Virus record (IMG/VR): IMGVR_UViG_3300046170_000317
Coordinates: 1-35,024 of that record
Length of the DNA: 35,024 bases
Source of the DNA: a virus
Direction: 5' to 3' (one strand)
Shown here: positions 2,910 to 34,516 of the stretch, piece by piece
Layout: every line of letters starts with the position of its first letter
How positions within the stretch are numbered: position 1 is the stretch's first letter
Notes under the pieces: model-generated
What the model was told of the DNA's origin: nothing
The model's input: only the letters and a program-made list of their open reading frames with translations
The model's database searches: none
Translations under genes and position numbers: made by a program

Positions 2910-3131
2910 TCAGTGAGCCGCTACGGTTTGGAAGAGGAAGTTCTGAGTCGCGATTCGCAGAGCGAAGGCGTTGAAGGATTCGGTCGCGTCTGGACCCATC
3001 GCGTTGCAGTATTCGCTGTACCGGATGCGCATTTCTTCTTTGTCGATGTCAGTCCAGCTGTTCATGATTTTGACTGCGCCTTCGATGATAGCGTCGTGGT
3101 CAATCGAGTGAGTTTCGTTGTCGTAGATCAT
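2910..3131 (-). CDS. Hypothetical protein, first gene of minus-strand cassette
   Basis: A 73-residue largely helical protein (DKEEMRIRYSEYCNAMG, then ATESFNAFALRIATQNF). No family recognised. It is promoter-proximal in the antisense cassette: a candidate promoter lies about 50 bases upstream (3179-3207, complement) and the shared leader TTCGACAGGAGA gives a strong ribosome site eight bases from the ATG. A 29-base gap containing another copy of that leader separates it from the next gene. Confidence 0.7.
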   Translation of the reverse strand: MIYDNETHSIDHDAIIEGAVKIMNSWTDIDKEEMRIRYSEYCNAMGPDATESFNAFALRIATQNFLFQTVAAH

Positions 3132-3138
3132 GCTTACT

Positions 3139-3150
3139 TCTCCTGTCGAA
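3139..3150 (-). promoter_or_regulatory. Shared early-gene leader / ribosome site
   Basis: TTCGACAGGAGA on the complement, before the ATG at 3131. Identical over 12 bases to the copies before the integrase gene, the gene starting at 34328 and the gene at 31655. Confidence 0.6.
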
Positions 3151-3178
3151 TATGGCGCTGCGTTGCGCCGATGAGTTA

Positions 3179-3207
3179 AAGATACGCATATTCCCCGCTA
3201 CTGTAAA
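3179..3207 (-). promoter_or_regulatory. Candidate sigma70 promoter for the antisense cassette
   Basis: Read on the complement: TTTACA, a 17-base spacer, then TATCTT. The -35 matches five of six consensus bases and the -10 four of six, with ideal spacing, about 50 bases upstream of the first cassette gene. It is placed so that transcription runs against the late operon. Confidence 0.5.
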
Positions 3208-3478
3208 CCGTTTGCTTACACCTTTTGGTACCAGCCTGTACCTCGCGAAAACACTGGCTTTTTGTTCCACGTAGAACAAGAATGGTCAGAACCAATGCCT
3301 CATTTTGGTACCGGTTTTGAGTAGTCGAGAACGCAAGCCAAAGTGGGTCAGATCATCGGTGTCCGGTAGGGCTGAGAAAGGTCGCGATCCGAGCCGCAAC
3401 TCGAGTAGTTCGAGGGCAGCTTGTGCGCGTGACAAACGGAACCGACAACCGACTTCCCGCTAGTCCTGAGTCTGCTCA
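3208..3478. other. Intergenic region between antisense cassette and head genes
   Basis: About 270 bases without a convincing gene. It holds a parS-like palindrome (3263-3278) and two copies of TTTTGGTACC (starting 3223 and 3303). I see no clear sigma70 promoter pointing right towards the head genes, so late transcription probably reads through from the terminase side or uses an unrecognised promoter. Confidence 0.5.
3263..3278. promoter_or_regulatory. parS-like palindrome
   Basis: TGTTCCACGTAGAACA matches the bacterial ParB-binding consensus TGTTTCACGTGAAACA at 13 of 16 positions, and is one base away from a perfect palindrome. The symmetry extends one more base pair (T3262/A3279). It could instead be an operator for a phage regulator controlling the nearby minus-strand promoter. 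Confidence 0.45.
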
Positions 3479-3643
3479 ATGAGCAGCACTATCCAAGCCA
3501 TCTGGATCGACCTCACGGTTATGAGTGAGGACGAGGGTGCCGAGTGGTGCCGAGACCACGACTTCAAAACTGACGTCGTTCGCTATCGCGAAGAAGACGA
3601 CGTCGAGACGCACTGCAATTTTCCCGCAGTTCGACACCTCTGA
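3479..3643 (+). pseudogene. Protease leader domain, joined to protease frame by a +1 shift
   Basis: This 54-codon frame (MSSTIQAIWIDLTVMSEDEG onward) looks like the small domain often found immediately before or fused to HK97-type proteases: a beta strand, a helix with EWCRDHDFKTD, then a charged strand. Sequence resembling the second half of that domain (FDTSEVIEGSWRTI, NNFPQGI) continues not in this frame but in the +1 frame, which runs without a stop into the protease ATG at 3723. The change maps to a TTTTCCC run at 3619-3625. Removing one base there would give a single fused leader-protease of about 267 residues. A 12-base stem with one bulge (arms 3572-3583 and 3588-3604) lies just upstream of the run. 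It may be a true frameshift mutation, a sequencing indel, or recoding. Confidence 0.5.
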
Positions 3644-3722
3644 AGTGATCGAGGGCAGCTGGCGAACCATTTCCAACAACTTCCCGCAAGGGATCAGCGC
3701 TACTACAGGAGATCGAAGAGAG

Positions 3723-4283
3723 ATGCCTGAAAAAAGCTATTCAACTTTTGAGATCAAGTCTTACGACGAGGAAGAGCGAATCATCCGGGGTATTGCGTCT
3801 ACCCCGGAGACGGACCGAGAGGGAGACATTGTCGAGCCGAAAGGCGGTCGATTTGCTCTGCCTGTTCCGCTGCTCTCTCAACACGACCATGCGCAGCCGG
3901 TCGGAATGGTGACCGAGGCCAACGTCACCGACAAGGGAATCGAAATCGAAGCAAGTCTCGCGAAGGGCAGTGGTCTGCCTTACGTCGAGCGAACGTGGCG
4001 ACAGGTGAAGGCCGGTCTGCTGCGAGGTCTTTCCATCGGCTTCCGCGCCGATGACGTCGAGCCGATCAAATCAGGCAGGCGATTCAAGTCATGGGAGTGG
4101 CTCGAGCTGAGTCTCGTCACTGTCCCCGCGAATGCTGGTGCTGGCGTCTCGTCAGTCAAGCAGTACGACGATCCCGCAATCGATCTCGAAGAGCAGTTGC
4201 TCGAAGCCGAGATGCGACGAGAGGACGTCATGAAGGCAGCAGCCGCTGCAATCGAAACCATTAACTCAACACTGAACAAGTGA
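3723..4283 (+). CDS. HK97-family prohead protease (peptidase S78)
   Basis: Serine protease that cleaves scaffold or delta-domain sequences during head maturation. From the ATG at 3723 it is 186 residues, a normal family length. The opening strand (STFEIKSYDEEERIIRGIAS) is typical. The catalytic histidine lies in LLSQHDH (H54), the nucleophile in GLSIGFR (S104), and the third conserved acidic position in LELSLVTVPAN (E128). The C-terminal 40 residues are charged and helical (EEQLLEAEMRREDV), perhaps a small scaffold-like tail. The open frame continues upstream to 3525 and carries the shifted leader described separately. The stop overlaps a GTG, but the capsid gene most likely starts at 4292. 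Confidence 0.92.
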   Translation: MPEKSYSTFEIKSYDEEERIIRGIASTPETDREGDIVEPKGGRFALPVPLLSQHDHAQPVGMVTEANVTDKGIEIEASLAKGSGLPYVERTWRQVKAGLLRGLSIGFRADDVEPIKSGRRFKSWEWLELSLVTVPANAGAGVSSVKQYDDPAIDLEEQLLEAEMRREDVMKAAAAAIETINSTLNK

Positions 4284-4291
4284 GGTCCACT

Positions 4292-5677
4292 ATGTCTATT
4301 TCAGACAAGATCGTCGCGGCTGAAACAGCTCTCGAAGAGCGTCGCGATTCCCTGCTGGAAGTCAGCAAGCAATACGAAGAGTCTCCCGAGCCAGAGCTGC
4401 TCGAGGCACTCGAAGAAGCAACCAACAACGTCGACCTGCAGGTCAAGGAGTTGGAAGCATACCGACGCGCAGAGAAGGCTCTCGCGGTGCAGGCAGCTGA
4501 GAAGCCAGCCATCGCCGTACAGGGTTCAGCTCCTGCTGTCGTGAAGTCCACGAAAGATCACGGTGTAATCAAGCAGCCGTTCGACTACTTCGTTGTTAAC
4601 GCTATCGCTACGATGGAAGCGCACAGCAAGAAGATTCCTTTCGAGGTTGCACTTGAGCGTCGCTTTGGTGATCACGAAGGCATCAAGGCAGTTGCACGTT
4701 CCTGCACGAAGGCTCTGGGCGACCAGTACAGCGACACCCCGCCTCTAGCGACTACGTTTACTGATGGTTGGGCTGCGGAGCTGACACGCGAGGCAACAGG
4801 AAATTATCTCGATCTCCTGTCTCCTGAGTCAGTCGTACCTCGACTGCCGCTCGAGCGAATCACCTTCGGCGGTGCCAACACCATCAAGATCCCCGGCAGA
4901 GCAGCTGATCCGCAGATGGACGCTGACTTCATCGGTGAAGGCGATGCGATCCCCGTGAAGAACGGTGCTTTGATGAGCAAGACTCTGCGTCAGCAGAAGA
5001 TGGCTGTCATCGGAGCGTACACGCAGGAGCTGCTGGAGCGATCCACTCCGAGCATCGTTGAGGTTGTACGCAACATGATTCTGCGTGACACCGCGATCAA
5101 GCTCGACACTGCGTTCCTGTCTAACCTTGCAGGCAGCGAGATCCAGCCTCCCGGTATGCAGAACCTCGCAGGCACTCCGATCGATGGTTCTGGCATGACT
5201 ACTGTCGACGGTGCAATGGCTGTCATCAAAGAAGCCATCGTTGCGATGTCTGTGAACCATCTGGGCGCTCGTCCGGTTTGGATCATGCACCCGTCTGTCG
5301 CATGGTCTCTGCAGATGATGACCAACGCAGTTGGCGCAAGTGCCTTCCCTGAGATGGCATCTGGCACTCTGGTCGGCATCCCTGTCGTCACCAGCACCAC
5401 TGTCCCTGCTGATCTGATTTTCTTGATCGATTGCGCAGAGATCGTGTTTGCTTACGACGGACCTCGCTTCTCTGCGAGCGATCAGGCAACGCTGCACATG
5501 GCTTCGCCAGCAGCTCCGCTGTCCGCTGCAGGAGAGAATACCGATCCCAACACTGTTGCGGCTCCTGTCAGATCACTTTGGCAGACGGATTCTCAGGCCA
5601 TACGCACTATATGGCATTTGACGTGGGACCAGATGCGCGATGGCGCAGTTGTTCTCGTCAACAACGTCGCAGTCTGA
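4292..5677 (+). CDS. Major capsid protein, HK97 fold, with delta domain
   Basis: 461-residue shell protein. The N-terminal ~75 residues are charged coiled coil (DKIVAAETALEERRDSLLEV, then ELLEALEEATNNVDLQVKEL), acting as the internal delta scaffold that the adjacent protease would remove. An Ala-rich linker precedes the HK97-type core, with recognisable family segments such as GWAAELTREATG, IKIPGRAADPQMDADFIGEG, a long spine-helix region and the late GIPVVTSTTVPAD loop. I chose ATG 4292 over the GTG at 4280 because GAGG sits six bases upstream of it. A terminator-like hairpin directly follows the gene. Confidence 0.95.
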   Translation: MSISDKIVAAETALEERRDSLLEVSKQYEESPEPELLEALEEATNNVDLQVKELEAYRRAEKALAVQAAEKPAIAVQGSAPAVVKSTKDHGVIKQPFDYFVVNAIATMEAHSKKIPFEVALERRFGDHEGIKAVARSCTKALGDQYSDTPPLATTFTDGWAAELTREATGNYLDLLSPESVVPRLPLERITFGGANTIKIPGRAADPQMDADFIGEGDAIPVKNGALMSKTLRQQKMAVIGAYTQELLERSTPSIVEVVRNMILRDTAIKLDTAFLSNLAGSEIQPPGMQNLAGTPIDGSGMTTVDGAMAVIKEAIVAMSVNHLGARPVWIMHPSVAWSLQMMTNAVGASAFPEMASGTLVGIPVVTSTTVPADLIFLIDCAEIVFAYDGPRFSASDQATLHMASPAAPLSAAGENTDPNTVAAPVRSLWQTDSQAIRTIWHLTWDQMRDGAVVLVNNVAV

Positions 5678-5686
5678 ATCACTCCA

Positions 5687-5716
5687 CGGGGCGGCTGGTA
5701 AAGCGCCCCGATTTTT
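5687..5716 (+). terminator. Intrinsic terminator/attenuator after capsid gene
   Basis: Perfect 7-bp stem CGGGGCG/CGCCCCG (5687-5693 and 5704-5710) with a 10-base loop, followed by ATTTTTAT. The U-tract is short, so partial read-through to the portal and tail genes is likely. Confidence 0.65.
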
Positions 5717-5752
5717 ATGGCTTGCAATTGCGCAACAAAAGGGAGCTGTCGA

Positions 5753-6028
5753 ATGTACGTTTGGGCACCGTGGAAACTTGAAGAATTGAAGAATCGTCGA
5801 GGTCTGTTTGACGTTGAGAAAACGCTTGCCGAGAAGCTCATGAAAGAGGGTCTCGTCGAGAATCCTGCAATCGGCGGGAATAAGTTGACGAAGGTGACTG
5901 ACGCACCTGCGCCTCGCAAGAAGCCAAAGGCTAAGAAGAAGAAAGCTGAGTCAGAAGAGAACAAGGCCATCGAGCCGCAGCAGACAACGATGATCGACGA
6001 GAGTGACATCGATGTCGCTGCTGACTAA
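5753..6028 (+). CDS. Small lysine-rich protein between capsid and portal
   Basis: 91 residues, with the start fixed by GGGAG seven bases before the ATG. The N-terminal half is a compact helix-containing domain (WAPWKLEELKNRRGLFDVEK) and the C-terminal half is a low-complexity linker of Pro, Lys and Glu (PRKKPKAKKKKAESEENK) ending in an acidic tail. No family recognised. Position between capsid and portal suggests a head component, for example a decoration or portal-associated protein whose basic arm contacts DNA. This is inference from location and charge. It overlaps the portal start by 17 bases. Confidence 0.7.
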   Translation: MYVWAPWKLEELKNRRGLFDVEKTLAEKLMKEGLVENPAIGGNKLTKVTDAPAPRKKPKAKKKKAESEENKAIEPQQTTMIDESDIDVAAD

Positions 6029-7322
6029 GGTCAAATCCCTCTGGGGAGCTGAAGGCTCGAACCGAGGTCCGTTCTCCGGGCAGGGCGAGCAAGGTGGCTG
6101 GTATCAGTTCGGGCCGTGGGAAGACGGCTACCAGCGCAACCTCGAGATGCCCAGCGGCTTCGACGCTAAGAAGATACCGGCTGCGTATGCGTCGGTGATG
6201 GCTAATGCGCGCGCGGTGAGTCAATGCCCACCGAAGCACAAGCGCAAAGACTCTGAAGGCAAGACGGAGATCGTCGAGAACTCGGCTGCAGCTGCAGTGC
6301 TGCGTTCTCCCAATCCGTATGAGACCTTCGCCCAGTTCATATTGAACGCGACTGCGCAGATGCTTTTCGACGGCGAAGCATTTGTGCTGGTAACTCGGGA
6401 CGACGTTGGTCGACCTTTGCGTTTTGACCGCATGGACTCGCGGTCCTGCTCGCCGTATGTGCAAGACGGAGAGCTTTTTTATTCCGTAGGCTCGAACCCA
6501 TTCATCCCTTCTGAGATGGTGTACATGGTTCCTGCTCGCGAGGTTCTTCATCTGCGGCTGCTGACACCGCGTCACGTCCTGATTGGTGAGTCGCCGATCA
6601 AGGCTGCAGCTCTGGCAGCTGGTGTGAACGTCGCACTCAGCCGCAGTCAGGCTGCGTTCTTTGCCCAGATGTCGAGACCATCAGGGGCGCTCATGTCAGA
6701 GCAGATGTTGAACAAGGATCAGCTTGAGTCTCTGCGTGAGGCATGGGCGCAGCAGTCGCAGCGCATGGCGCAGGGTCACGTTCCGATTTTGGCTGGCGGT
6801 CTTAAATTCGAAAGCATGGGAATCACTTCGCAAGATGCGCAGCTGATCGAGGCGCAGCGGATGTCGATACAGGAGATCGCATCCGTTTACGGTACGCCGC
6901 TGCCGGTAATTGGTGATCTGTCGAACTCAACACTTTCCAACGCCGAGACTCTCGTCAGTCTCTGGCTTTCCATTTCCCTTGGCAGTTTGCTCGAGAACAT
7001 CGAGCAGAGTTTGTCCAAGATCTTTGACCTGCCAACGAACGAGAAAATCGACTTCGATGTTGCTGGTCTTTTGCGAACGGATTTCCTGACAAGGATCGAC
7101 GGTCTGACGAAGGCGGTACAGGGCGGTCTGTTCACTCCAAACGAGGCGCGAGCGCGCGAGGGTCTGCATGGTGTGGAGAACGGGGATGTCCCGATCGTCC
7201 AGCAGCAGATGGTTCCGCTCGGATTCAATCCTGTCGCAGAAGAGCCGGTGGCTGCACCAGCTGAAGATGTAGAGCGATCGGTTGTTGATCTCGAAGATTT
7301 TCGGAAGTGGATGAATGGATAA
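6012..7322 (+). CDS. Portal protein, HK97 family
   Basis: 436 residues from ATG 6012 (a GTG at 6003 is an alternative). The dodecameric portal sits at one capsid vertex, forms the DNA channel and docks the terminase. Family features include the N-terminal AAYASVMANARAVSQCP helix, the TAQMLFDGEAFVLV strand, the ESPIKAAALAAGVNVALSRS helix, a stem/clip region with RMSIQEIASVYGTPLPVIG, and the C-terminal GLFTPNEARAREGL followed by PVAEEPVAAPAEDV. In most HK97-like phages the portal precedes the protease; here it follows protease and capsid. Its end overlaps the collagen-like gene by eight bases (ATGGATAA). Confidence 0.93.
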   Translation: MSLLTKVKSLWGAEGSNRGPFSGQGEQGGWYQFGPWEDGYQRNLEMPSGFDAKKIPAAYASVMANARAVSQCPPKHKRKDSEGKTEIVENSAAAAVLRSPNPYETFAQFILNATAQMLFDGEAFVLVTRDDVGRPLRFDRMDSRSCSPYVQDGELFYSVGSNPFIPSEMVYMVPAREVLHLRLLTPRHVLIGESPIKAAALAAGVNVALSRSQAAFFAQMSRPSGALMSEQMLNKDQLESLREAWAQQSQRMAQGHVPILAGGLKFESMGITSQDAQLIEAQRMSIQEIASVYGTPLPVIGDLSNSTLSNAETLVSLWLSISLGSLLENIEQSLSKIFDLPTNEKIDFDVAGLLRTDFLTRIDGLTKAVQGGLFTPNEARAREGLHGVENGDVPIVQQQMVPLGFNPVAEEPVAAPAEDVERSVVDLEDFRKWMNG

Positions 7323-8679
7323 CAAAACACTCAAAGAACTTGCGAGTCACATTGGCTCGGAGATACGTGAACACGTAGGCATCGCTCACGATCGCATTGA
7401 CGAGCTGGCTGCAGATGTTGCTGCGCTGCCGGAGGTCCAGCATGGTCGCGACGGCAAGCATGGCGAACAGGGTGAGCGCGGAGAGAAGGGCGACCCCGGC
7501 GAAGCCATTGTCGGTCCGCAGGGAGAGCAGGGTCCACAAGGCGAATCAATTGTCGGACCGCAGGGGGAGAAAGGAGAGAAGGGAGATGACGGAGAGTCGA
7601 TCGTCGGACCCCAAGGCGAGCGCGGCGAGAAAGGTGATCCCGGCGAAAGTATTGAGGGAGCGCAGGGCGAGCAAGGGGTACAGGGTGAGAAGGGAGACAC
7701 GGGAGATACCGGCACTGGTATCGACGTTCCGTTCTGGTCCGCTGATGAGGTTTATCGCGAAGGCGTGGAAGTGCAGCATCACTTCGGTCAGTTCTTTCGC
7801 GCGAAGAAAGACACTGCTGAAAGTCCAGATGCCCCCGAGAGCTGGGAACGAGTAGGCAGTTCCGGGTTCAGACTGACCGGTCCGTTCTCGAAAGAGGCTG
7901 AGTATCGGGACGGCGACCTGTTCGTCAAAGATTTCGGTCTTTTCCTGCACAGCAGCGGCAAGTCGACCCTGATCGCTGGGCGCGGACCCGAGGGCAAGAA
8001 GGGTAAGGCTGGAGCCACTGGTCGTGACGGCAAAGACGGAGTCGACGGTCAGGACGGTCAGGACGGCGCTGATGGTTCTCTGATCGAAGCTCTCGAGCTG
8101 CGAGGTGCCAATCTCGTCGCCGTATTCAAGAATGCTGACGGAACGGTCAAGGATCACAGCGTATCTCTGGACCCGTTCCTGCAAACCGCAGCGCTCGTCA
8201 CCAAAGAGGCAGCTGCGACTGAGAAGAAGTCGATAATCGAAGAAGCTGACGAATACGTTCGGAAGCTCTGGAATAGTCTCAGCTCACACCTCGACGCAGA
8301 GGATGCCACGCCGATCAGTTTCTATCGCGGCATTTGGCGTATGGACGTCAGCTATCAGGTCGGCGATTGGGTTCGGTACGGTACCGAGGGTCTGATCTGT
8401 CGCAGAGCGAATACCGGGATTGTTCCTCACAACTATCCGACGTCGACTGTGGACTCGTCTGAGTATTGGCAGGCCATAACCGGACTGCCGAGCCACGGTG
8501 TCGGAACTGCTGGTAATGACTCTGGCGGCGGCAGCGGCGTCACACCTCTCGACGTGTTGGTCAAAGAGGGCGGTCAGGGCGGCACCAAGTTCAGCCAGTT
8601 CGCATCGACGTCTGGTGAGGGAATCACTGGCGTCGGAGTTCAAGGCGGCAAGAACGTGAAGTTCGAGCTGACCTACTGA
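7315..8679 (+). CDS. Collagen-like fibre protein
   Basis: 454 residues, likely a trimeric virion fibre. Residues about 44-138 are nearly uninterrupted Gly-X-Y triplets, rich in GEKGDPGE and GPQGEQGPQGE units, with a second short block around 222-248 (GKKGKAGATGRDGKDG). Between and after these lie two small aromatic modules (one near FWSADEVYREG, one near GIWRMDVSYQVGDWVRYG) that resemble chitin-binding CBM5/12-type folds. The C-terminal ~45 residues are Gly-rich beta. It starts inside the portal stop. The TGA at 8677 coincides with a frame change: related fibre sequence resumes at once in the +1 frame (GAT GCG GTC), so the present stop may truncate a longer protein. Confidence 0.85.
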   Translation: MDNKTLKELASHIGSEIREHVGIAHDRIDELAADVAALPEVQHGRDGKHGEQGERGEKGDPGEAIVGPQGEQGPQGESIVGPQGEKGEKGDDGESIVGPQGERGEKGDPGESIEGAQGEQGVQGEKGDTGDTGTGIDVPFWSADEVYREGVEVQHHFGQFFRAKKDTAESPDAPESWERVGSSGFRLTGPFSKEAEYRDGDLFVKDFGLFLHSSGKSTLIAGRGPEGKKGKAGATGRDGKDGVDGQDGQDGADGSLIEALELRGANLVAVFKNADGTVKDHSVSLDPFLQTAALVTKEAAATEKKSIIEEADEYVRKLWNSLSSHLDAEDATPISFYRGIWRMDVSYQVGDWVRYGTEGLICRRANTGIVPHNYPTSTVDSSEYWQAITGLPSHGVGTAGNDSGGGSGVTPLDVLVKEGGQGGTKFSQFASTSGEGITGVGVQGGKNVKFELTY

Positions 8680-9258
8680 TGCGGTCGCAGTCAATCCGAA
8701 TCCGTTCCGCAATGCGAAGAACGGCCAGTTCGCCGCGACGCCGAAAGAGCTTGAGAACATCAAGAACCAGCGCGACGTGAATGAGTTCCTGTATGAGCGG
8801 ATCGTTGACATCGAGGCTGGCGATATCGAGATCCCGCCCGGAACGATTGTCTCTGACACACCTCCCGCCGATCCCCGAGGAGGGTCAAGGCTGGTACGAC
8901 ACTGGCAGGCTCGAGCTGTTCGTGTATGCGAATGATGGCTGGTTCCCTTGCTCCCCATTGGGCGCTCGGATTGAGGAAGGCGAGATTGTACAGGCGCAGA
9001 TACTTGAGCGACTTGAGACCGGGGAGTCTAGGCAAGAGACCATCGCCAGCTGAGATCGTTCACGCATTAGGCGAGCAGAGTGCGATTGAGGGCCGGGTCA
9101 AAGTTGGCGAAGGCGTACAGCAAGAAATCAAAAGCGATCTAGTCACTCTTGAGAATAAGGTGAAGCAGATCGAGGGTGCGGTCGGTGAACATACGATCAA
9201 CTTCACTCAAAGCAATCAGACCCCGAGGCATGGCGAATTCAACCTTCTCGACGATGGT
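8678..9258 (+). pseudogene. Fibre segments in three successive frames
   Basis: No single reading frame covers this stretch, yet each frame in turn looks strongly coding. Frame a (8678-8875) reads DAVAVNPNPFRNAKNGQFAA and KNQRDVNEFLYERIVDI, a pattern I associate with phage fibre connectors. At GATCCCCGAG (8870-8879) coding moves +1 to frame b (8877-9050): GQGWYDTGRLELFVYANDGW, a small beta module seen elsewhere in this window. At AGC TGA G (9048-9054) it moves +1 to frame c (9052-about 9258): EIVHALGEQSAIEGRVKVGE and a coiled-coil stretch. Near 9258 it moves +1 again into the next feature. A continuous version would link the collagen-like protein to the downstream frame as one fibre of roughly 950 residues. 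Confidence 0.6.
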
Positions 9259-10165
9259 CATGCAGATGGTCTACCAGATCGAAGAAGCGGCGCACATTCA
9301 GATCAGCAATGTCGACGCTGACGGCTCGCCTGTCGCTATTGACCGGGTCGGGGTTGGCGATGTTATCCGTCTAGCGCATGGAATGACCGGCATGGCCGAG
9401 TTGCGAGTTACGAGTGCGTCGGATGGCTTCTTCAGTGTCACCAAGATCAACGGCGATCTCAGCGAGATGTTCGTCGGCCCATACGGGTTCGTCATGTTGT
9501 CGCAGTATGATCCTGCTGGCGTAGCGACTATCGCCTACGTTGACCAGCAAGATGAAGTCCTGCGTCAAGACACTCTGACCCTCAACGATTACTTTGAGCG
9601 TGTCACCGTGAAAACCGAAGGCGCCAACCAGCTTCCTGACGAAACTGATTGGAAGGTTAGGCAGCACAACTCAGAAGGTAAGAACAAAACACTAATACAT
9701 AGCGTTGGTGGTCGGCTTGGCGTTTATAACTTAAAGGAGCCAACCGAGTCACATCACGCGGCTACCAAAGGATATGTGGATTCCAAGTCTGACGGCGTCC
9801 CATCCAGACCACCCGGCCTCAAGTTCATGTGCAGCATCGTTAACTTGCCGAATGGGTATTTCCAGTGGTGGGTAAAGGAAAGCACGGGTAATCAGCACCT
9901 AGAGCTTGCCACCACAGATGGGGATGGCATCGCTTGGGGAACTAACACGCCGCGTGAAGATGTGAGGTACACCCATCATCAACCCTTCACTATCTGGGAG
10001 GTAGCAGATGGTGGATGGAAGATGAAGGTGACAGGCACTATCAGCAGGATCGATTTCCATCCTGATCACGCTCTTTGCTATGTCTCCAGCAAGACTGCCC
10101 TGAATGGAGGCAACTTCGCTAATGGGTCTGGGCCTTACTACATCACCATCGGGGGTGTCTTTTAA
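9230..10165 (+). CDS. Fibre protein segment (downstream part of a split fibre)
   Basis: About 311 residues from the in-frame ATG at 9230; the frame opens earlier but the convincing sequence begins near 9260 (MQMVYQIEEAAHIQISNVDA). It contains beta-rich repeats typical of fibre shafts (AELRVTSASDGFFSVTKING), then a segment DYFERVTVKTEGANQLPD and KEPTESHHAATKGYVDSK, a motif common near the ends of phage tail-fibre proteins. The C-terminus (FANGSGPYYITIGGVF) looks like a natural end. The sequence just before 9260 continues in another frame, so this is either the C-terminal part of a broken fibre or a product of reinitiation. The next gene overlaps the stop (TAATG). Confidence 0.7.
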   Translation: MANSTFSTMVMQMVYQIEEAAHIQISNVDADGSPVAIDRVGVGDVIRLAHGMTGMAELRVTSASDGFFSVTKINGDLSEMFVGPYGFVMLSQYDPAGVATIAYVDQQDEVLRQDTLTLNDYFERVTVKTEGANQLPDETDWKVRQHNSEGKNKTLIHSVGGRLGVYNLKEPTESHHAATKGYVDSKSDGVPSRPPGLKFMCSIVNLPNGYFQWWVKESTGNQHLELATTDGDGIAWGTNTPREDVRYTHHQPFTIWEVADGGWKMKVTGTISRIDFHPDHALCYVSSKTALNGGNFANGSGPYYITIGGVF

Positions 10166-10947
10166 TGAGCCTACCAAATAAACCGTGGAAAGACGGCGAC
10201 AAGTTCACCAACGAAGAGACAGGCGTTGAGTACACCTTCGATGGTGAGAAGTGGCTTGCCTCTGGTGGTGGTGAGGCTGATGACGCAACACTGGCATTGA
10301 TCAATGAGGTTGATCGCACTAGCCAAATGCGCGATGAAGTCCTCGACAGCAAGATAGACCAAGAGTCCGATTTAAACACTGTCGCCCATCTGAAGCTGGA
10401 GGATCAGATTCTGCGTTGTTACGCGTGGTCTGAGGGTGACAATGAAAGTCTCGAAAAAGAGCTGAAAGCGGTTGACGATGATTTGCAGGCGCAGATCACT
10501 GAGAACAAAGATGCCTCAGAGTCTGGTGACCGGCAGTTGCAGTCAGAGATCGATCAAGTTGCTCTGGCGCTTGAGACGCTACTGGTGCAACGCGAACACG
10601 GTCAGTGGACGTATGTCGGTTTCTCTGGCGATAACATCCCGCGCAACGCTGGTGAGTTTGCGCTGATCTCTGATGACCTGTCAGCGAACGACAACATCAT
10701 CACGTTGAACCAAGAAGACTTGAAGGGAATCACTCACGGCTTCGGCGATGTTGAAGTCGGCGACTACGTTGAGATCGTTGATTTTGATGAGCCGGGTTCG
10801 TATGCGCTCTTTGTAGTGACTAAAGCGCCAGAGGGAACGGGCATCGTCAACGTCGAGGTCGCGTTGAAGGATAAGGGTCAGAACATCCTGATCGGTGAGA
10901 AGTGCGAGATACGTTTCTTTCAGGTCAACGAGCAGGATATCAACTAG
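10165..10947 (+). CDS. Fibre protein with N-terminal beta module and coiled coil
   Basis: 260 residues. The opening 35 residues (PWKDGDKFTNEETGVEYTFD, ending in EKWLAS) are another copy of the short 'display' module seen in the neighbouring fibre genes. Residues about 45-140 are heptad-like coiled coil (DATLALINEVDRTSQMRDEV; ELKAVDDDLQAQITENKDAS). The C-terminal 120 residues are beta-rich (GEFALISDDLSANDNIITLN, DYVEIVDFDEPGSYALFVVT). It ends QVNEQDIN followed by TAG, and the natural continuation LDDLDARYLRLAGG is present one frame back (-1), so the stop at 10945 probably splits an originally longer protein. The start is coupled to the previous stop (TAATG) with a G-rich ribosome site. Confidence 0.7.
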   Translation: MSLPNKPWKDGDKFTNEETGVEYTFDGEKWLASGGGEADDATLALINEVDRTSQMRDEVLDSKIDQESDLNTVAHLKLEDQILRCYAWSEGDNESLEKELKAVDDDLQAQITENKDASESGDRQLQSEIDQVALALETLLVQREHGQWTYVGFSGDNIPRNAGEFALISDDLSANDNIITLNQEDLKGITHGFGDVEVGDYVEIVDFDEPGSYALFVVTKAPEGTGIVNVEVALKDKGQNILIGEKCEIRFFQVNEQDIN

Positions 10948-11552
10948 ATGATCTGGATGCTCGCTATCTTCGATTGGCTGGCGGCGAGATGGCAGGGTCT
11001 GCAACGCTCAAGGTTAATACGCTTGAGCCTGTCAATACGCCGATGATTCAGTACAACGGCGATCCAGACTCTACTCATGCGGCGGGTCTTATCAACCGCG
11101 AGATGATGAGACGTTACGTTGCGGCAGAGCTTGACAAGGCTCCCCAATCTAGCTCGCCAATGAGTGCAAAACTCATGGTGGGATTTCAAGTGTGGAGTGA
11201 AGGCCGACTGTCTGAAGGCTGTTTCAATATGCTGGATGAGAACAAACAGGTCACCTCTAAGGTTAAAGGCGCAAGGTTCCTTACGTTCCACATTATTCAA
11301 GGCTGGGATCATTGCGAGTGGATGAGTTATGCCTTGAGAGGCAAAGGGCAAATACATCTCATGGATAAGGACGGAAAGTATCTGCTGTCTAAGTTTGTAA
11401 TGGGCGCTGAAAAGCGCGAGGCGGGAAGCGGCGACGATCCTGTTGATGCGCTGTGGTTTTTTGAGCTAGAGGAATACGGCTTTGACGTTGATGTGACACT
11501 TAGCGGCAACTACTTCATTGAGTTTGATAGCTGTTTGGAGCAGACGGAATGA
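10902..11552 (+). CDS. Fibre protein continuation (-1 frame)
   Basis: The open frame begins at GTG 10902, but convincing fibre sequence starts near 10944 (LDDLDARYLRLAGGEMAGSA). This matches the motif commonly seen where fibre shafts enter their repeat region, continuing the preceding gene in the -1 frame. The segment TPMIQYNGDPDSTHAAGLIN and the beta-rich C-terminal domain (WSEGRLSEGCFNMLDENKQV, LSGNYFIEFDSCLEQ) look like a receptor-facing domain. If separately translated, an ATG at 10989 is the first good start after the shift. It overlaps the next gene by four bases (ATGA). Confidence 0.65.
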   Translation: MRDTFLSGQRAGYQLDDLDARYLRLAGGEMAGSATLKVNTLEPVNTPMIQYNGDPDSTHAAGLINREMMRRYVAAELDKAPQSSSPMSAKLMVGFQVWSEGRLSEGCFNMLDENKQVTSKVKGARFLTFHIIQGWDHCEWMSYALRGKGQIHLMDKDGKYLLSKFVMGAEKREAGSGDDPVDALWFFELEEYGFDVDVTLSGNYFIEFDSCLEQTE

Positions 11553-15371: not shown

Positions 15372-16111
15372 CTTCGCAGCGAATCATTCATTTCCCCGAC
15401 GGGTCGAACGGTACTGAGGCACCGCAGGACGGGGATATTCATCAGGAGTACGGGCGGCAGTGGAAGTATTTCCAAATGCCAAACGAAGCTGGCGTCCCCG
15501 GTGTGTGGCGCGCAGCAGACTGCACGTATATCGAGGGTGGTCCCGGGTGGGATCTGGATTCAATCAAGGACTGGCTCGAGATCAACGTCCCCGATTACGA
15601 CGACCAGATCATTGCGGCGATGAAGGTGACGATGGCTTTCGTCGAGCGGTACTGCAACCGTCTCTTCGAGTGGCGTGACAATCATCAAGAGCTGAAGTTG
15701 CCGCAGAAGGGTAACGGATGGCAGTTGCATCTCTGGCCGGTGAGCGGGTCGGTGTACATCGACAGCGTGAAGAACGAGTACCTCGTCGACAACGAGCGCG
15801 GCGTGATCTGGTTCCCTAATTACCAGCACAAGAACTTCCATCAGCTCCAATACTCCGGCGGCTATAAGGCGGACGAGTGGCCTGCGGATCTCCTGCAAGT
15901 CCTGATGAACGCAATCAAGAACCAGTGGCAGATCAGCACCGGGGGCGAGACGGCGGACAAGGTATCGCGGATCACAATCCCCGACGTCGGAACCATTTCA
16001 TACAACGCTGGCACGAGCTGGTCGACTGACATCGGACTCGGTACGAACTTCGGTCCGATCTCTCAGCAAGATCAAATCGTTCTCAATCTCTACAGGTTGT
16101 GGGAATGCTGA
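15368..16111 (+). CDS. Head-tail adaptor (gp6-like) with fibre-type N-terminal module
   Basis: 247 residues. Residues about 60-170 match the gp6-like connector family that binds beneath the portal: DLDSIKDWLEINVPDYDDQI, IAAMKVTMAFVERYCNRLFE, then a beta section and ADLLQVLMNAIKNQWQ. Unusually, the first ~45 residues (RIIHFPDGSNGTEAPQDGDI, then YGRQWKYFQ and GVWRAAD) form the same kind of short beta module that starts the nearby fibre proteins, as if a fibre module had been fused to the adaptor. The start is coupled to the fibre gene before it. It lies directly before stopper and terminator genes, as expected for the neck. Confidence 0.8.
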   Translation: MTSQRIIHFPDGSNGTEAPQDGDIHQEYGRQWKYFQMPNEAGVPGVWRAADCTYIEGGPGWDLDSIKDWLEINVPDYDDQIIAAMKVTMAFVERYCNRLFEWRDNHQELKLPQKGNGWQLHLWPVSGSVYIDSVKNEYLVDNERGVIWFPNYQHKNFHQLQYSGGYKADEWPADLLQVLMNAIKNQWQISTGGETADKVSRITIPDVGTISYNAGTSWSTDIGLGTNFGPISQQDQIVLNLYRLWEC

Positions 16112-16422
16112 ACAATCGATCTGACATCCGGGCGAAGTACGAGGCAACGATCGAGACGCTGGGTGTCCCGGCTGTTGTCGAGAGTATGTCCGGCGACTCG
16201 GTCAGTTGCATTGTCGGCTTCAAGACAAGCAACAGTGAAGAGCTGATCGCGGCGTATGGGGTCGGCGTGAAAGTCGTGACCGTTCGTGAGCGTGATGTTC
16301 CGGTCGTGAAGAAAATGGATCGAGTTCTCGTTGCATCAGAGCGGTACACGATCAACGAAGTATTCCCGGTGTACCTCAACGATCTGCTCGTTGGGTGGCG
16401 CTGTGTGATCAAAGGGAAGTGA
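16105..16422 (+). CDS. Head-closure / stopper protein (putative)
   Basis: 105 residues from ATG 16105, overlapping the adaptor stop. It opens with a helix (NNRSDIRAKYEATIETLG) and continues as a small beta barrel with VKKMDRVLVASERYTINEVF and a final LVGWRCVIKGK. The pattern of a 'D-R-V' strand, a 'Y-x-I' strand and a terminal GK is typical of SPP1 gp16/HK97 gp7-like stoppers that seal the neck after packaging. The identification combines this pattern with position between adaptor and tail terminator. Confidence 0.6.
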   Translation: MLNNRSDIRAKYEATIETLGVPAVVESMSGDSVSCIVGFKTSNSEELIAAYGVGVKVVTVRERDVPVVKKMDRVLVASERYTINEVFPVYLNDLLVGWRCVIKGK

Positions 16423-16423
16423 G

Positions 16424-16831
16424 ATGAGTTCGCAATATGTCAGAACTACATTTCGATCGTGGCTTCAGGACGCGCAGATTCAGACGCCGTACTACGACAC
16501 GATCAATCTCGAGCAGAACCCATCCGAAGAGACATGGGTCACGGCTTCGTTCGATGTGACGCTTCGTGAGAAGAAAACCTTTTGCGAAGGGTCGTGGGAA
16601 GAAGAGGGGGAAGTGTCCCTCATATTCAACGGAATGGCGGGTGTGGGTGACGGCACACTTCTCGCGATTGTCGAGCTGGATATCAAAACACTTCTGAGCT
16701 TTCGCGATGCGACTGGTCAGTTGACGATTACCGGAGCGAGTGGCGTCCAAGAGTTTTCAAGCGGCAACGTGAACTCCGGTTATCAAATCGAATACATCAT
16801 TGAATACACCTTCTCGGAGAGACAATCATGA
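16424..16831 (+). CDS. Tail terminator / minor tail protein (putative)
   Basis: 135 residues. A single alpha/beta domain with an extended first helix (YVRTTFRSWLQDAQIQ), central strands and a C-terminal strand pair (YQIEYIIEYTFSE), matching the size and order of tail-terminator proteins that cap the tail tube and join it to the neck. It sits between stopper and major tail protein and overlaps the latter by four bases (ATGA). The assignment is mostly by synteny. Confidence 0.6.
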   Translation: MSSQYVRTTFRSWLQDAQIQTPYYDTINLEQNPSEETWVTASFDVTLREKKTFCEGSWEEEGEVSLIFNGMAGVGDGTLLAIVELDIKTLLSFRDATGQLTITGASGVQEFSSGNVNSGYQIEYIIEYTFSERQS

Positions 16832-17481
16832 CAGCACATTCAACAGATACCGTCACCTTCTGGCTGACGACCGGGACACCAACGACCGGGACAATGGGGG
16901 CGGCACCAGCTCAAGGGAAGCCGACGTCGATCACGGCAACAACATCAGGCGGAGCCGACGGCGACATCGTTGTCTGCTCTAACACCAATTGGGGTTCGGT
17001 CGACAATGTTCAGATCGTGGACGACTGGTCGAACTCTGGCTTCAAGCTTCTCGGCTGTGACAGCACCAGAGAGACCGTAGCTTCCAAGGCAGGAAACTTC
17101 GCGCACTACAAAGCGGACGCAATGACCAAGCTCTGTCCGTCTGAGTTCACTGATAACTCGAACACACCGGGAACGACCGGGGTGCCGACGTTCTGTGATC
17201 CGACGGCCACGATTGCGAGTTCCGTGGTGGACAGCGGGACAGCAACACTCGTCGGTTATGTAGATACCTGTGACGAGGATTACATCGCGCTGTACGAAGC
17301 ATACCAATTCAAGGACCAGCGTTATCTCCGGATCGACCTTGGCGAAGCTGGCGGCTATCTCATCATGCCGGTCACTGCTCTTGGCATGAGCTGGGAACTT
17401 CCTATCGACGGCGCTGTGCAATATTCGATCGAGTTCGTGAAGGGCAGTGCAACACGCCACGCATTCGGACCTTGCGCCTAA
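16828..17481 (+). CDS. Major tail (tube) protein
   Basis: 217 residues. The N-terminus TVTFWLTTGTPTTGT and the TSITATTSG, STRETVASKAG and IALYEAYQFKDQRYLRIDLG segments fit siphovirus tube subunits, as does its position directly before the tail assembly chaperones. It is unusual in having six cysteines over about 200 residues (in VVCSN, LGCDS, KLCPS, TFCDP, DTCDE and GPCA), which could bind metal or form disulfides in the virion. Confidence 0.8.
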   Translation: MTAHSTDTVTFWLTTGTPTTGTMGAAPAQGKPTSITATTSGGADGDIVVCSNTNWGSVDNVQIVDDWSNSGFKLLGCDSTRETVASKAGNFAHYKADAMTKLCPSEFTDNSNTPGTTGVPTFCDPTATIASSVVDSGTATLVGYVDTCDEDYIALYEAYQFKDQRYLRIDLGEAGGYLIMPVTALGMSWELPIDGAVQYSIEFVKGSATRHAFGPCA

Positions 17482-17514
17482 TCATCAACCACATACCCGA
17501 GACGGAGGGTACTC

Positions 17515-17772
17515 ATGTTAAAGACAAAGAAGGTAATCATCGAGGACACGGAGTACGAGTTCAGGGAGCCGACAGTTGAGTCGATGCTCCCTGTTCTCGG
17601 GAAGTTACAGGACGACGACAAACGCTTCGAAGCGCAAGTCGACATCCTGAAGCTGACAGTGTTCCTGAACGGGGAGCCGGTCGGTAATCAGATCGGCATC
17701 TCGAAGCTGAATGACTTTGCGCCACACGCGCTCGATGTCTGCGGTATGGGCAGTGATGATGACGCCAGTTGA
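17515..17772 (+). CDS. Tail assembly chaperone, N-terminal product (gpG-like)
   Basis: 85 residues with a strong GGAGGG ribosome site. TKKVIIEDTEYEFREPTVES followed by VLGKLQDDDKRFEAQVDILK and a C-terminal acidic SDDDAS is the usual pattern of the short chaperone that coats the tape measure. It ends with AGT TGA; the following frame starts within its last 17 bases. Skipping the T of that TGA would continue straight into the next product as DDDAS-EENLF. Confidence 0.75.
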   Translation: MLKTKKVIIEDTEYEFREPTVESMLPVLGKLQDDDKRFEAQVDILKLTVFLNGEPVGNQIGISKLNDFAPHALDVCGMGSDDDAS

Positions 17773-17965
17773 AGAGAACCTCTTTCATCTGGCGGAGCGG
17801 TTGCACAAGTGCGTCTGGGAAATCAAACAGATGCCGGTCACCGAATACTTCGGCTGGATCACTCACCTCAACAAGCAAGCGGAAGCTCGCGACAAAGAGG
17901 AGAGGAAGAAGAAGGGTGACATGACTGCCATGTCGCCAGCGGAAATCGTGTCGAGGCTGACGTGA
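17756..17965 (+). CDS. Tail assembly chaperone, C-terminal product (gpT-like)
   Basis: 69 residues if started at ATG 17756 or 68 from ATG 17759. LFHLAERLHKCVWEIKQMPV, then EYFGWITHLNKQAEARDKEE is typical of the extension made in most siphoviruses by programmed frameshifting. The frame is +1 relative to the upstream gene. There is only a weak ribosome site before the tandem ATGs, so either coupling by reinitiation or a +1 (or -2) frameshift near 17770 is possible. It lies immediately before the gp10-like and tape measure genes. Confidence 0.75.
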   Translation: MMTPVEENLFHLAERLHKCVWEIKQMPVTEYFGWITHLNKQAEARDKEERKKKGDMTAMSPAEIVSRLT

Positions 17966-18441
17966 AGACAGGCTCATCAATGAAGCTTGTCGGCGCTGAC
18001 TTCCTTTCGAAGCAGATGAAGGCGTTCGGTCCTACCGTCTCGAAGGCGGCGGCGAAGACCGGACTCCGACAGGCTGGTCTTGAGTTGCGAAAGCAATTGT
18101 GGCGAGCGGCTCCGAAGAGAAGCAATCCCTCGAAACTGAAGAAGAGCATCGGGCTGAAGTCATACGGCAAGTGGAAGAACCCGTCTGTCTTCGTCGGTCT
18201 CCGCAAAGCGAAGGGAGAGACGAGGGGTCTCTGGTATTACCGGACTCTGGAAGTCGATCACGCGAGAGGCAAGGCATATCACCCGTTCTTCGAGAAGACA
18301 TACAACCGGCACCGCAGACGGATCACGAAGTACATCGTGAAAGGAACAACGAAGGCGCTCTATACCGAGGCGACCAAGGTGTACGCGAAGAGCAAGTCAG
18401 ATCAGTCGAAGTACGGGTTCCGGAGAGGGAGGGTCAAATAA
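17962..18441 (+). CDS. HK97 gp10-like tail protein
   Basis: 159 residues from GTG 17962 (ATG 17980 is an alternative with CAGG upstream). It is strongly basic: FLSKQMKAFGPTVSKAAAKT, LRQAGLELRKQLWRAAPKRS, then WYYRTLEVDHARGKAYHPFF and a Lys/Arg-rich tail. The HPF(F)xxA/T element and N-terminal helix are typical of the HK97-gp10 family, which helps tail completion. In most phages it precedes the major tail protein; here it follows the chaperones. Confidence 0.75.
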   Translation: MKTGSSMKLVGADFLSKQMKAFGPTVSKAAAKTGLRQAGLELRKQLWRAAPKRSNPSKLKKSIGLKSYGKWKNPSVFVGLRKAKGETRGLWYYRTLEVDHARGKAYHPFFEKTYNRHRRRITKYIVKGTTKALYTEATKVYAKSKSDQSKYGFRRGRVK

Positions 18442-20379
18442 ATGGCGACAGCAGATAAGGATCTCGCGAAGTTATCGGTCCAGCTCGAGCTTCAGACTGC
18501 GGCGTTCGAGGCTGGCGTCAAGAGGATGGACGGCCAGCTCAAGCGGATGGACAAGAACACCAAACGCTCGAGCAAGGGGCTGGACAAGCTCAACGCGACG
18601 CTCGGGAAGTTGGGTATCAGTCTCGGCGCTCTGGCTGGCGCTTTCAGTATTCAGGCTGTCACCAACCTCACCAAAGAGGCGATCGCATTTGGTGACTCAA
18701 TCGATAAGGTCTCGCAAAAAGTCGGGGTCAGTGCTGAAGAGCTTCAGGAGTTGCGATTCGCGGCTTCACAAAGCGGCGTCGATGTTCGTCAGCTCGACAT
18801 GGGTATTCAGCGTTTCGCTCGGAGAATGGGCGAAGCGGCGAAGGGTACCGGCGAACTTTTAAAGACGACTCAAGAGCTTGGCATCGTTTTCAAGAATGCC
18901 GACGGTACGAATAAGTCCACGGTCGAGCTTTTGGAGCAATATGCCGAGGCTGTCGGCAGGGCAGAGACGCAGCAGGAAAAACTGAGGCTTGCGTTTAAAG
19001 CATTCGACTCAGAGGGTGCCGCGCTGGTCAATCTGATCGGCGACGGTGGCGAGGCAATGGCGAAGCTCCGTCAGGAGGCTGTCGATCTCGGTCTAGTTCT
19101 CAGCGAAGATCTGGTACGACAGTCAGAGGTCATCAATGACAAATTCAACATACTCGCGACGCAGATCAAGACAGGAATCACTGAAGGATTCATCGAGGCT
19201 ACGTCTGCAGCACTAGCATTTTTCGACGTCTTCTCAGAGAAGGGCGAAGCAGAGCGCAGGCTCGCAGAGATCGATGCCAACATCGAACAGCTGCGGGCAA
19301 AGCTAGCCGAAGGCAGGCAAAGAGGATCGGCGACAACTGCTCAACAATTGCAGAATGAAATTGCTCTGCGCAAAGAAGTGCAGGCGCAACTCGATGCGCT
19401 AATAGAGAGAGAACAAAAGCGGAACGGTACCAACGTCGCTGCGAACGAGCAGGCGGCAGCGCAGGCTCTGCAGAACGAAGTCGACAAGCTGGTCGCATCT
19501 GTTAATCCGTTGAACGAGTTAGCTAAAAAGCTGGGTGTCGTCGATGCGGCTTTGAAGCAGGTCAGTGATCCAGCGACGATAGCAGCTCTCGAAGACCTCA
19601 GAGAGAAGCTGGAGTTCGGCGAGGTGCTCGCTGATGACACCGATCCGGTCACTGCTTATCAGAAGAAGGTCGAAGCGTACATCGGCACGTTGAACTCATA
19701 CGCTAACGATACTGCAGCGCAGCTTGGAATCATGTATGCCGCGCTCGAACAGCTGACTGATCCAGCGTTGATTGCAGAGGTCGAGGCTGCGATTGAGAGG
19801 TTGGAGTTGGGTGTCGACATACCTCCCCCAGATCCCGACCCGTACAAAGATGCGCTGAAGGAAATCAAAGATGCGGTCGACGGGTTCTCTGCAGACTTCA
19901 CGAACACTTTGATCGACTCATTGGAAACTGGTGAAGCTCGCTTCGACGAGTTCGCCAAGAACATTCTGAAGACAATCGCGAAGATCATTCTGAACAAGAT
20001 CTTCGAGCAGTTCTTCACGGCTATCACGAATCCCATCTTCAGCAGCATTGGTCTGCAAAGCGTCGACCTCGGAGAAGAAGGGCTGACAGCCAGCCTTGCT
20101 CAGAGCAATCAGGCGCTCACCAGAGAGGGCGAGGCGTCGACCCAGATGATGACTGTGGGCAGAGCGCAGCCGCAGCTCAAGTCAGTCTCTCAGTCTCCGG
20201 TGACGGTCAACGTCAACAACTATGGCAACGACGATGTGCAGGTTGCCGAGCGACGTGATTCCAACGGTGGCATCGAGATCGATGTACTTATCAAAAGCAC
20301 AGTCCGTCAGGGGTTCGCCAACGGTGACTTCGACAAGGTAATGCAGAACACCTACGGCGCGCGGAGGCTCGGATACTAA
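18442..20379 (+). CDS. Tail tape measure protein
   Basis: 645 residues. The N-terminus LQTAAFEAGVKRMDGQLKRM is a family signature, followed by a hydrophobic segment (about residues 54-76, KLGISLGALAGAFSIQ), the motif FGDSIDKVSQKVGVSAEELQ, long Ala/Glu/Gln coiled coil through about residue 480 and a hydrophobic C-terminal helix (IAKIILNKIFEQFFTAI). The protein sets tail length; by the usual ~0.15 nm per residue rule the tail would be roughly 95 nm. The C-terminus (SVTRQ-like DVLIKSTVRQGFANGDFDKV) is typical of related phages. It has a GGAGGG ribosome site and TAATG coupling to the next gene. Confidence 0.93.
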   Translation: MATADKDLAKLSVQLELQTAAFEAGVKRMDGQLKRMDKNTKRSSKGLDKLNATLGKLGISLGALAGAFSIQAVTNLTKEAIAFGDSIDKVSQKVGVSAEELQELRFAASQSGVDVRQLDMGIQRFARRMGEAAKGTGELLKTTQELGIVFKNADGTNKSTVELLEQYAEAVGRAETQQEKLRLAFKAFDSEGAALVNLIGDGGEAMAKLRQEAVDLGLVLSEDLVRQSEVINDKFNILATQIKTGITEGFIEATSAALAFFDVFSEKGEAERRLAEIDANIEQLRAKLAEGRQRGSATTAQQLQNEIALRKEVQAQLDALIEREQKRNGTNVAANEQAAAQALQNEVDKLVASVNPLNELAKKLGVVDAALKQVSDPATIAALEDLREKLEFGEVLADDTDPVTAYQKKVEAYIGTLNSYANDTAAQLGIMYAALEQLTDPALIAEVEAAIERLELGVDIPPPDPDPYKDALKEIKDAVDGFSADFTNTLIDSLETGEARFDEFAKNILKTIAKIILNKIFEQFFTAITNPIFSSIGLQSVDLGEEGLTASLAQSNQALTREGEASTQMMTVGRAQPQLKSVSQSPVTVNVNNYGNDDVQVAERRDSNGGIEIDVLIKSTVRQGFANGDFDKVMQNTYGARRLGY

Positions 20380-30317: not shown

Positions 30318-31187
30318 ATGAAATTCCTATTTGCAGTGGTATTGATAGTGATGGTGGGCTGCACATCTCTCGAGAAGCAGCAGTCGAACGAACAGGCTCA
30401 GATCAACATGGTCAAGGTGCAGCGAGAGGCCAGAGAGCGAGAAGAAAAGGTTGAGGCTCAAGAGAAGGCGGCTCTCTATGAGGCCATCGCCAAGATCGCA
30501 GCCACCAACCCAGAGCATTCACCCGCAGCTCTGGTGGCTCTCACAGCGATCTCTATGCAGGCTGACGACGAAGACGGTGAATCAGAGATGCCGATGGTCG
30601 GGTTACGCGATAAGCCGAATGAAGCGCTCTATGGACGCAGGCACTGGCTCCGACGGTAGGCAGTTTGGTCAACGGTCTGGGTGTCGCTATGGTGGGCGCA
30701 TCGGTTGCCAAGAATAACAGCGACAACAATGCGAGGGTGCAGATCGCAGATGGTGAGACCAATGCAGCCATTGTGGGCAGCATCGCCGACCTCGGTGTCG
30801 CAGCTGTGGGGTGCAGGAGGTGTCGACGTCGGGGGCGATTATCTGTATGTCCAAGACTCGGGTGTCATCGATCAGTCATCGAACACGACCGACTCATACA
30901 ACACCATTTCAACTTCGGACAGCAGCTCGAACGTGGCTTACACCGCGAGCGACAACGCATTCATCAACGCAGGGATCGCAGACTATACCGACTACATCAT
31001 CGATTATGAGGGCAGCAATATGTCGCTGGCTGAGTTGATCGCAGCGCTCGATGCTGCAGGGGCTGCTTACTCGATCGATCTCGATGGCACGACGGTTGCC
31101 ACTTCAGAAGGTGATGGAGACAGTGATCCCGTTTCAATCTCATGTGATTCCCCGCAATTCTCTCCAGCACCACCCGAGTGCAGCTGA
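30318..31187 (+). pseudogene. Lipoprotein gene with two compensating frame changes
   Basis: The first frame (30318-30659) starts with a signal MKFLFAVVLIVMVGCTS whose cysteine fits a lipobox, then a charged coiled coil (QAQINMVKVQREAREREEKV). At GCG CTC (30624-30629) convincing sequence continues one frame back as ALWTQALAPTVGSLVNGLGV and DNNARVQIADGETNAAIVGS. At GTGGGGTG (30806-30813) it moves +1 to GAGGVDVGGDYLYVQDSGVI and an acidic, Ser/Asp/Thr-rich C-terminal region ending PQFSPAPPECS. One base missing and one extra base would account for everything, giving a protein of about 289 residues. It follows the tail genes and could be a virion-exit or cell-surface protein; I cannot name a family. 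The region after the first stop also has a second frame open to 31009. Confidence 0.6.
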
Positions 31188-33669: not shown

Positions 33670-33990
33670 TCAGTGAGTGGTGCGCAGCGTGATGCCGCCA
33701 CCGGGGAAGTCTTTGCGGATCTGTCGGTCTAACTCGATACCAGCTGCCCGACGGAATGCGTCAGGTGCGACTGAGTAGGACCGATCGCCTTTGCGGTCGT
33801 AGACGGTCAGCGCGACATCGAGGTCAGAGTCGATGAACTGGTGACACTGACGGTTGGCGAAAGTGATGGCTTTGTCCATCTGCCCGAAGTAACGGATGCC
33901 GACGTAGTTGTCGGACTCGTCGTAGCAGATGCACGTCCAGCCACACTTGTGCGGGTTGTACTGGACGGTGATGGAGTAGGGGAGGTTCAT
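33670..33990 (-). CDS. Hypothetical small protein upstream of integrase
   Basis: 106 residues of alpha/beta character (NLPYSITVQYNPHKCGWTCI, RYFGQMDKAITFANRQCHQF, DVALTVYDRKGDRSYSV). No family recognised. It resembles in layout the small alpha/beta proteins of the antisense cassette. ATGA overlap with the gene before it. Confidence 0.7.
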   Translation of the reverse strand: MNLPYSITVQYNPHKCGWTCICYDESDNYVGIRYFGQMDKAITFANRQCHQFIDSDLDVALTVYDRKGDRSYSVAPDAFRRAAGIELDRQIRKDFPGGGITLRTTH

Positions 33991-34444: not shown

Positions 34445-34502
34445 TGGCGGTGGGCGAAGGATTCGAACCTTCGGACCGTTTCCGGTCAACGGTTTTCAAG
34501 AC
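34445..34502 (-). other. attP: Phage attachment core (attP): 3' part of tRNA-Ser(UGA)
   Basis: On the complement this reads as the anticodon loop CTTGAAA, a long variable arm typical of tRNA-Ser, T-arm GAAGG-TTCGAAT-CCTTC, acceptor strand GCCCACC, discriminator G and CCA. The 5' half (acceptor GGTGGGC and D-arm) is absent, and pairing breaks down in the 5' side of the anticodon stem. This is the usual crossover position for tRNA-targeting tyrosine integrases; integration would restore a complete tRNA. Confidence 0.85.
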
Positions 34503-34516
34503 GGCGAACCCACTTG

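Follow-up and report, generated by a model that had tools for sequence, protein, structure and literature searches.

The window analysed here (35,024 bases) is a whole virus record. Its gene content marks it as a temperate siphovirus, assembled from a metagenome; the predicted genes and the places considered below are collected in Table 1. The open reading frames (ORFs) of the terminase, capsid, portal, tape measure and tail tip were open. A search of GenBank phage records with positions 1-25000 of the window gave no DNA matches, and no protein in these records matched the last part of fibre gene 1. Genome contigs searched with the terminase contained no relatives, so evidence of a host or prophage was absent from them. 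Near the integrase gene, positions 34450-34515 resembled by eye the 3' part of a tRNA-Ser gene. ARAGORN found no complete tRNA there, and the stretch is a possible candidate attachment site.

Table 1. Genes and frame changes in the window.
Feature	Position	Strand	Evidence
Terminase large subunit, prohead protease, HK97-type capsid, portal, collagen-like fibre	window		gene content
Lambda-type tape measure, NlpC/P60 protein, lambda J-type tip protein	window		gene content
S74 endosialidase-chaperone fibre, tyrosine integrase	window		gene content
Prohead (head maturation) protease gene, S78 type, +1 near 3614	3479..4283	+	PF04586 E 8e-12; PHROG head maturation protease
Fibre gene 1, first part (collagen-like), frame 1	7315..8673	+	PF01391 collagen E 6.5e-14; PHROG tail fibre
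Frame change +1, first of four in fibre gene 1	8674..8678	+	15 related contigs with one open frame; DNA alignment to L026, L027, L093
Frame change +1 in run of four C	8873..8877	+	one frame in L026, L004, L016, L002, L015, L090
Frame change +1	9048..9051	+	one frame in L002, L003, L004, L016, L019; flanking DNA near-identical
Frame change +1 with adjoining substitutions	9256..9260	+	one frame in L002, L003, L004, L016, L019
Fibre gene 1, last part, frame 2, stops before gene 2	9260..10165	+	matches end of L016 950-aa ORF (3084-5936) and of L002 631-aa ORF
Fibre gene 2 with -1 frame change at ~10940	10165..11552	+	one ORF in L015, L016, L019, L084, L085, L086, L090, L095, L096, L098
Lipoprotein-like gene, compensating -1 near 30640 / +1 near 30809	30318..31187	+	300-aa homologue in L101

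On translation, convincing fibre sequence passed from frame to frame at the five places named in an initial annotation of the window. Frameshift-aware protein-to-DNA alignment to relatives placed the four +1 changes of fibre gene 1 at approximately 8674, 8873, 9048 and 9256, and the -1 change of fibre gene 2 at approximately 10940. The record contains all five, each no more than a few bases from its reported place and with the reported sign. The pieces after 8674 matched no PHROGs family, and those tried against Pfam gave no match. A related uncultivated siphovirus, L016 (IMGVR_UViG_3300046425_000521), carried homologous sequence, its genes likewise running portal, fibre 1, fibre 2. Its collagen-like tail fibre was one open frame of 950 amino acids, followed by a second fibre that was one ORF as well, whereas the counterpart of the first in the window was in five pieces.

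The relatives were IMG/VR contigs (L numbers), which covered 31.8 of the 35 kb; records very near to the window may be missing from this set. For the last part of fibre gene 1, viral_contigs yielded nineteen related contigs; the first part of this gene, fibre gene 2 and the backbone gained relatives from further scans. The initial annotation had proposed comparison with related genomes as a check, and the answer was uniform. Each fibre site was spanned by 5 to 15 related contigs (15 at 8674, approximately 8 at 8873, 5 at 9048, 5 at 9256 and at least 10 at 10940). Every one of them had a single open frame, and none shared a break. A pattern scan of the 9048 site with 0-2 bases allowed found five contigs, all in the one-frame form; the exact pattern at 8674 with 0-3 bases allowed found no further contig. 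Since all spanning relatives were single-frame, the changes point neither to programmed frameshifting nor to a conserved recoding signal, and recoding, one of the explanations listed in the annotation, is contradicted.

The annotation had also described the changes as clustered in fibre genes and absent elsewhere. A frameshift-aware scan showed otherwise, with three more changes. The prohead protease gene, with its +1 change, was in one frame in four relatives (L069, L070, L075, L079). For the lipoprotein-like gene, L101 has a homologue that aligned in one frame (39%) and matched the middle part of approximately 60 residues in the second frame only; ORFs of L044, L057 and L106 likewise ran on in this second frame. 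The count for the window thus came to at least eight, of which six were +1 and two -1, and the genes affected are functionally unrelated. The tail genes downstream, reported as free of changes, were indeed clean between 10.95 and 30.6 kb, where ORFs of up to 1836 amino acids were tiled, but the statement is incomplete, given the -1/+1 pair. Three further candidates of the scan were rejected: one near 2658, where the window has separate genes, one at 18456, a gene start, and one at 33691, the boundary of two minus-strand ORFs (the last two judged from ORF positions only).

We compared substitutions in the window with codon positions. Against L026, one substitution and the frame change were the sole differences in 8836-8916. 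Over 8575-9042 there were 21 substitutions, almost all at third codon positions, and the third-position register shifted at the frame change. Among substitutions private to the window in both fibre genes, 59% fell at third positions (41/70, p ~ 1e-5 against one third). The bias was present in all pieces of fibre gene 1 that were scored and weak in fibre gene 2 alone (8/21). Neither nonsense substitutions nor large deletions were seen, and the only stops were those due to the frame changes. Third-position substitutions in the shifted register indicate that fibre gene 1 was under selection until now and, with the lack of nonsense substitutions, that the frame changes are younger than essentially all other differences. 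Such youth fits error; otherwise it would need an unusually recent decay by indels only. The decaying fibre gene suggested by the annotation is thus disfavoured. A pseudogene of old decay would be expected to have a relaxed codon-position pattern and nonsense mutations, and the window had neither.

The longest run of identical bases at any site was four, and no relevant tandem or inverted repeats were found at the sites. Most extra bases in the window lay outside homopolymers, and at least three of the six (3614, 8674, 9048) differed from both neighbours, which is unlike polymerase slippage.

The tightest four changes lay within 582 bases (p = 0.0014 against uniform placement of eight events), and this significant clustering in the fibre gene counts against error. 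The annotation had argued that random error should not cluster in this way, but error-like contigs of the same group cluster too (p = 0.006 for L003). We applied the same frameshift-aware scan to 18 related loci. No frame changes were found in 13 of them and L015 had one place, while in L003, L006 and L018 single-base frame changes were numerous and scattered, reaching beyond the fibres into head and tail genes; many relatives were clean. Events in L002 were the mirror of those in L003. These two contigs were 97% identical over 10.9 kb with approximately 16 frame-changing gaps, mostly an extra base in L003, not in homopolymers and clustered. The extra bases of the window near 3614, 8674 and 9048 were of the same kind. 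The rate in the window was 22.8 frame changes per 100 kb, and 22.78 per 100 kb was reported for polished long-read viral assemblies (PMC6487183), a likeness that is suggestive only. In long-read viral metagenome assemblies single-base indels persist after polishing at tens per 100 kb, similarly to the window, and the poor assembly of fibre and island regions may likewise be compared with it (Warwick-Dugdale et al. 2019, PMC6487183).

Unbroken spanning relatives, together with similar breaks in unrelated genes, make error the most likely explanation, rather than switching or decay. It is highly probable, as far as sequence comparison can tell, that the frame changes are residual consensus or assembly error in a metagenome-assembled record. 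They were absent from independent relatives and spread beyond one gene or function, as would be expected of sequencing or assembly error. The fibre genes would then be intact in the living phage population, and the record would carry single-base errors, mostly extra bases, which would also strike the prohead protease and lipoprotein-like genes. Bunching in 8.6-9.3 kb would probably come from poor or mixed read support of an exchanged fibre module; we infer both the cause, error, and the low read support there. The backbone was mostly 65-80% identical in DNA to relatives and 8.6-11.5 kb mostly 84-99% to several different ones, so reads from co-occurring phages may have been mixed in a mosaic fibre module, a possible contributor. 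A local assembly problem was the best supported of the options in the annotation, but the problem was contig-wide and not local.

Genuine, very recent inactivation, in a defective phage or prophage lineage or by loss of the fibre after a receptor switch, is in our estimate unlikely. The integrase gene would make a decaying prophage possible, the cluster of events lies in receptor-binding genes, exchange is natural in fibre regions, and a real temperate phage with very recent fibre loss could be cited against error. However, such decay would have produced eight frame changes with no nonsense substitution or large deletion seen, left the third-position bias in all scored pieces of fibre gene 1, affected the head protease gene, kept the other structural and packaging genes named above open, and shared no break with any relative. 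A very unlikely case would be a living temperate lineage whose fibre gene, part of an exchanged receptor-binding module, had only just been shattered, and which persisted through helper phages or repeated recombination. If the breaks were real, they would capture a receptor-binding gene just as it was being lost.

We regard it as extremely unlikely that the frame changes are joints from recombination among fibre variants, whether this took place in the phage or was the work of the assembler. The best relative did switch along 8.6-11.5 kb, and near 10940 the left flank resembled L084 and the right flank L095/L096 with a three-base match at the junction; this single change could be a true recombination joint or a chimeric joint. 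At 8873, 9048 and 9256, however, one relative fitted both flanks, so there is no joint. Surface genes in general are known to undergo phase-variable switching, but the chance that the fibre is subject here to on/off switching or programmed frameshifting is practically negligible. At the sites, homopolymers did not exceed four bases, and suitable repeats, including the repeat tract expected at a slipped-strand switch site, were absent. Relatives need no frame change, and none was conserved in homologues as in programmed ribosomal frameshifting. Recoding would have to occur independently at four consecutive sites, and one site lies in the head protease gene, so the phase variation proposed in the annotation found no support. 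When host-recognition genes of phage contigs from metagenomes carry clustered frame changes, what is probably error may mimic decay or switching; relatives and a whole-contig frameshift-aware scan tell error from both.

At high DNA identity, the fibre module (8575-11550) also occurs in L002/L003, phages with unrelated upstream genes. As it is common to different backbones, the module moves between them. Elsewhere, 3352 bases (15548-18899) were exactly identical to IMGVR_UViG_3300046754_000339, and another contig, L100, differed by five bases. Identity fell to approximately 70-80% in the flanks, and the stretch may reflect either a very recent exchange or a chimeric assembly.
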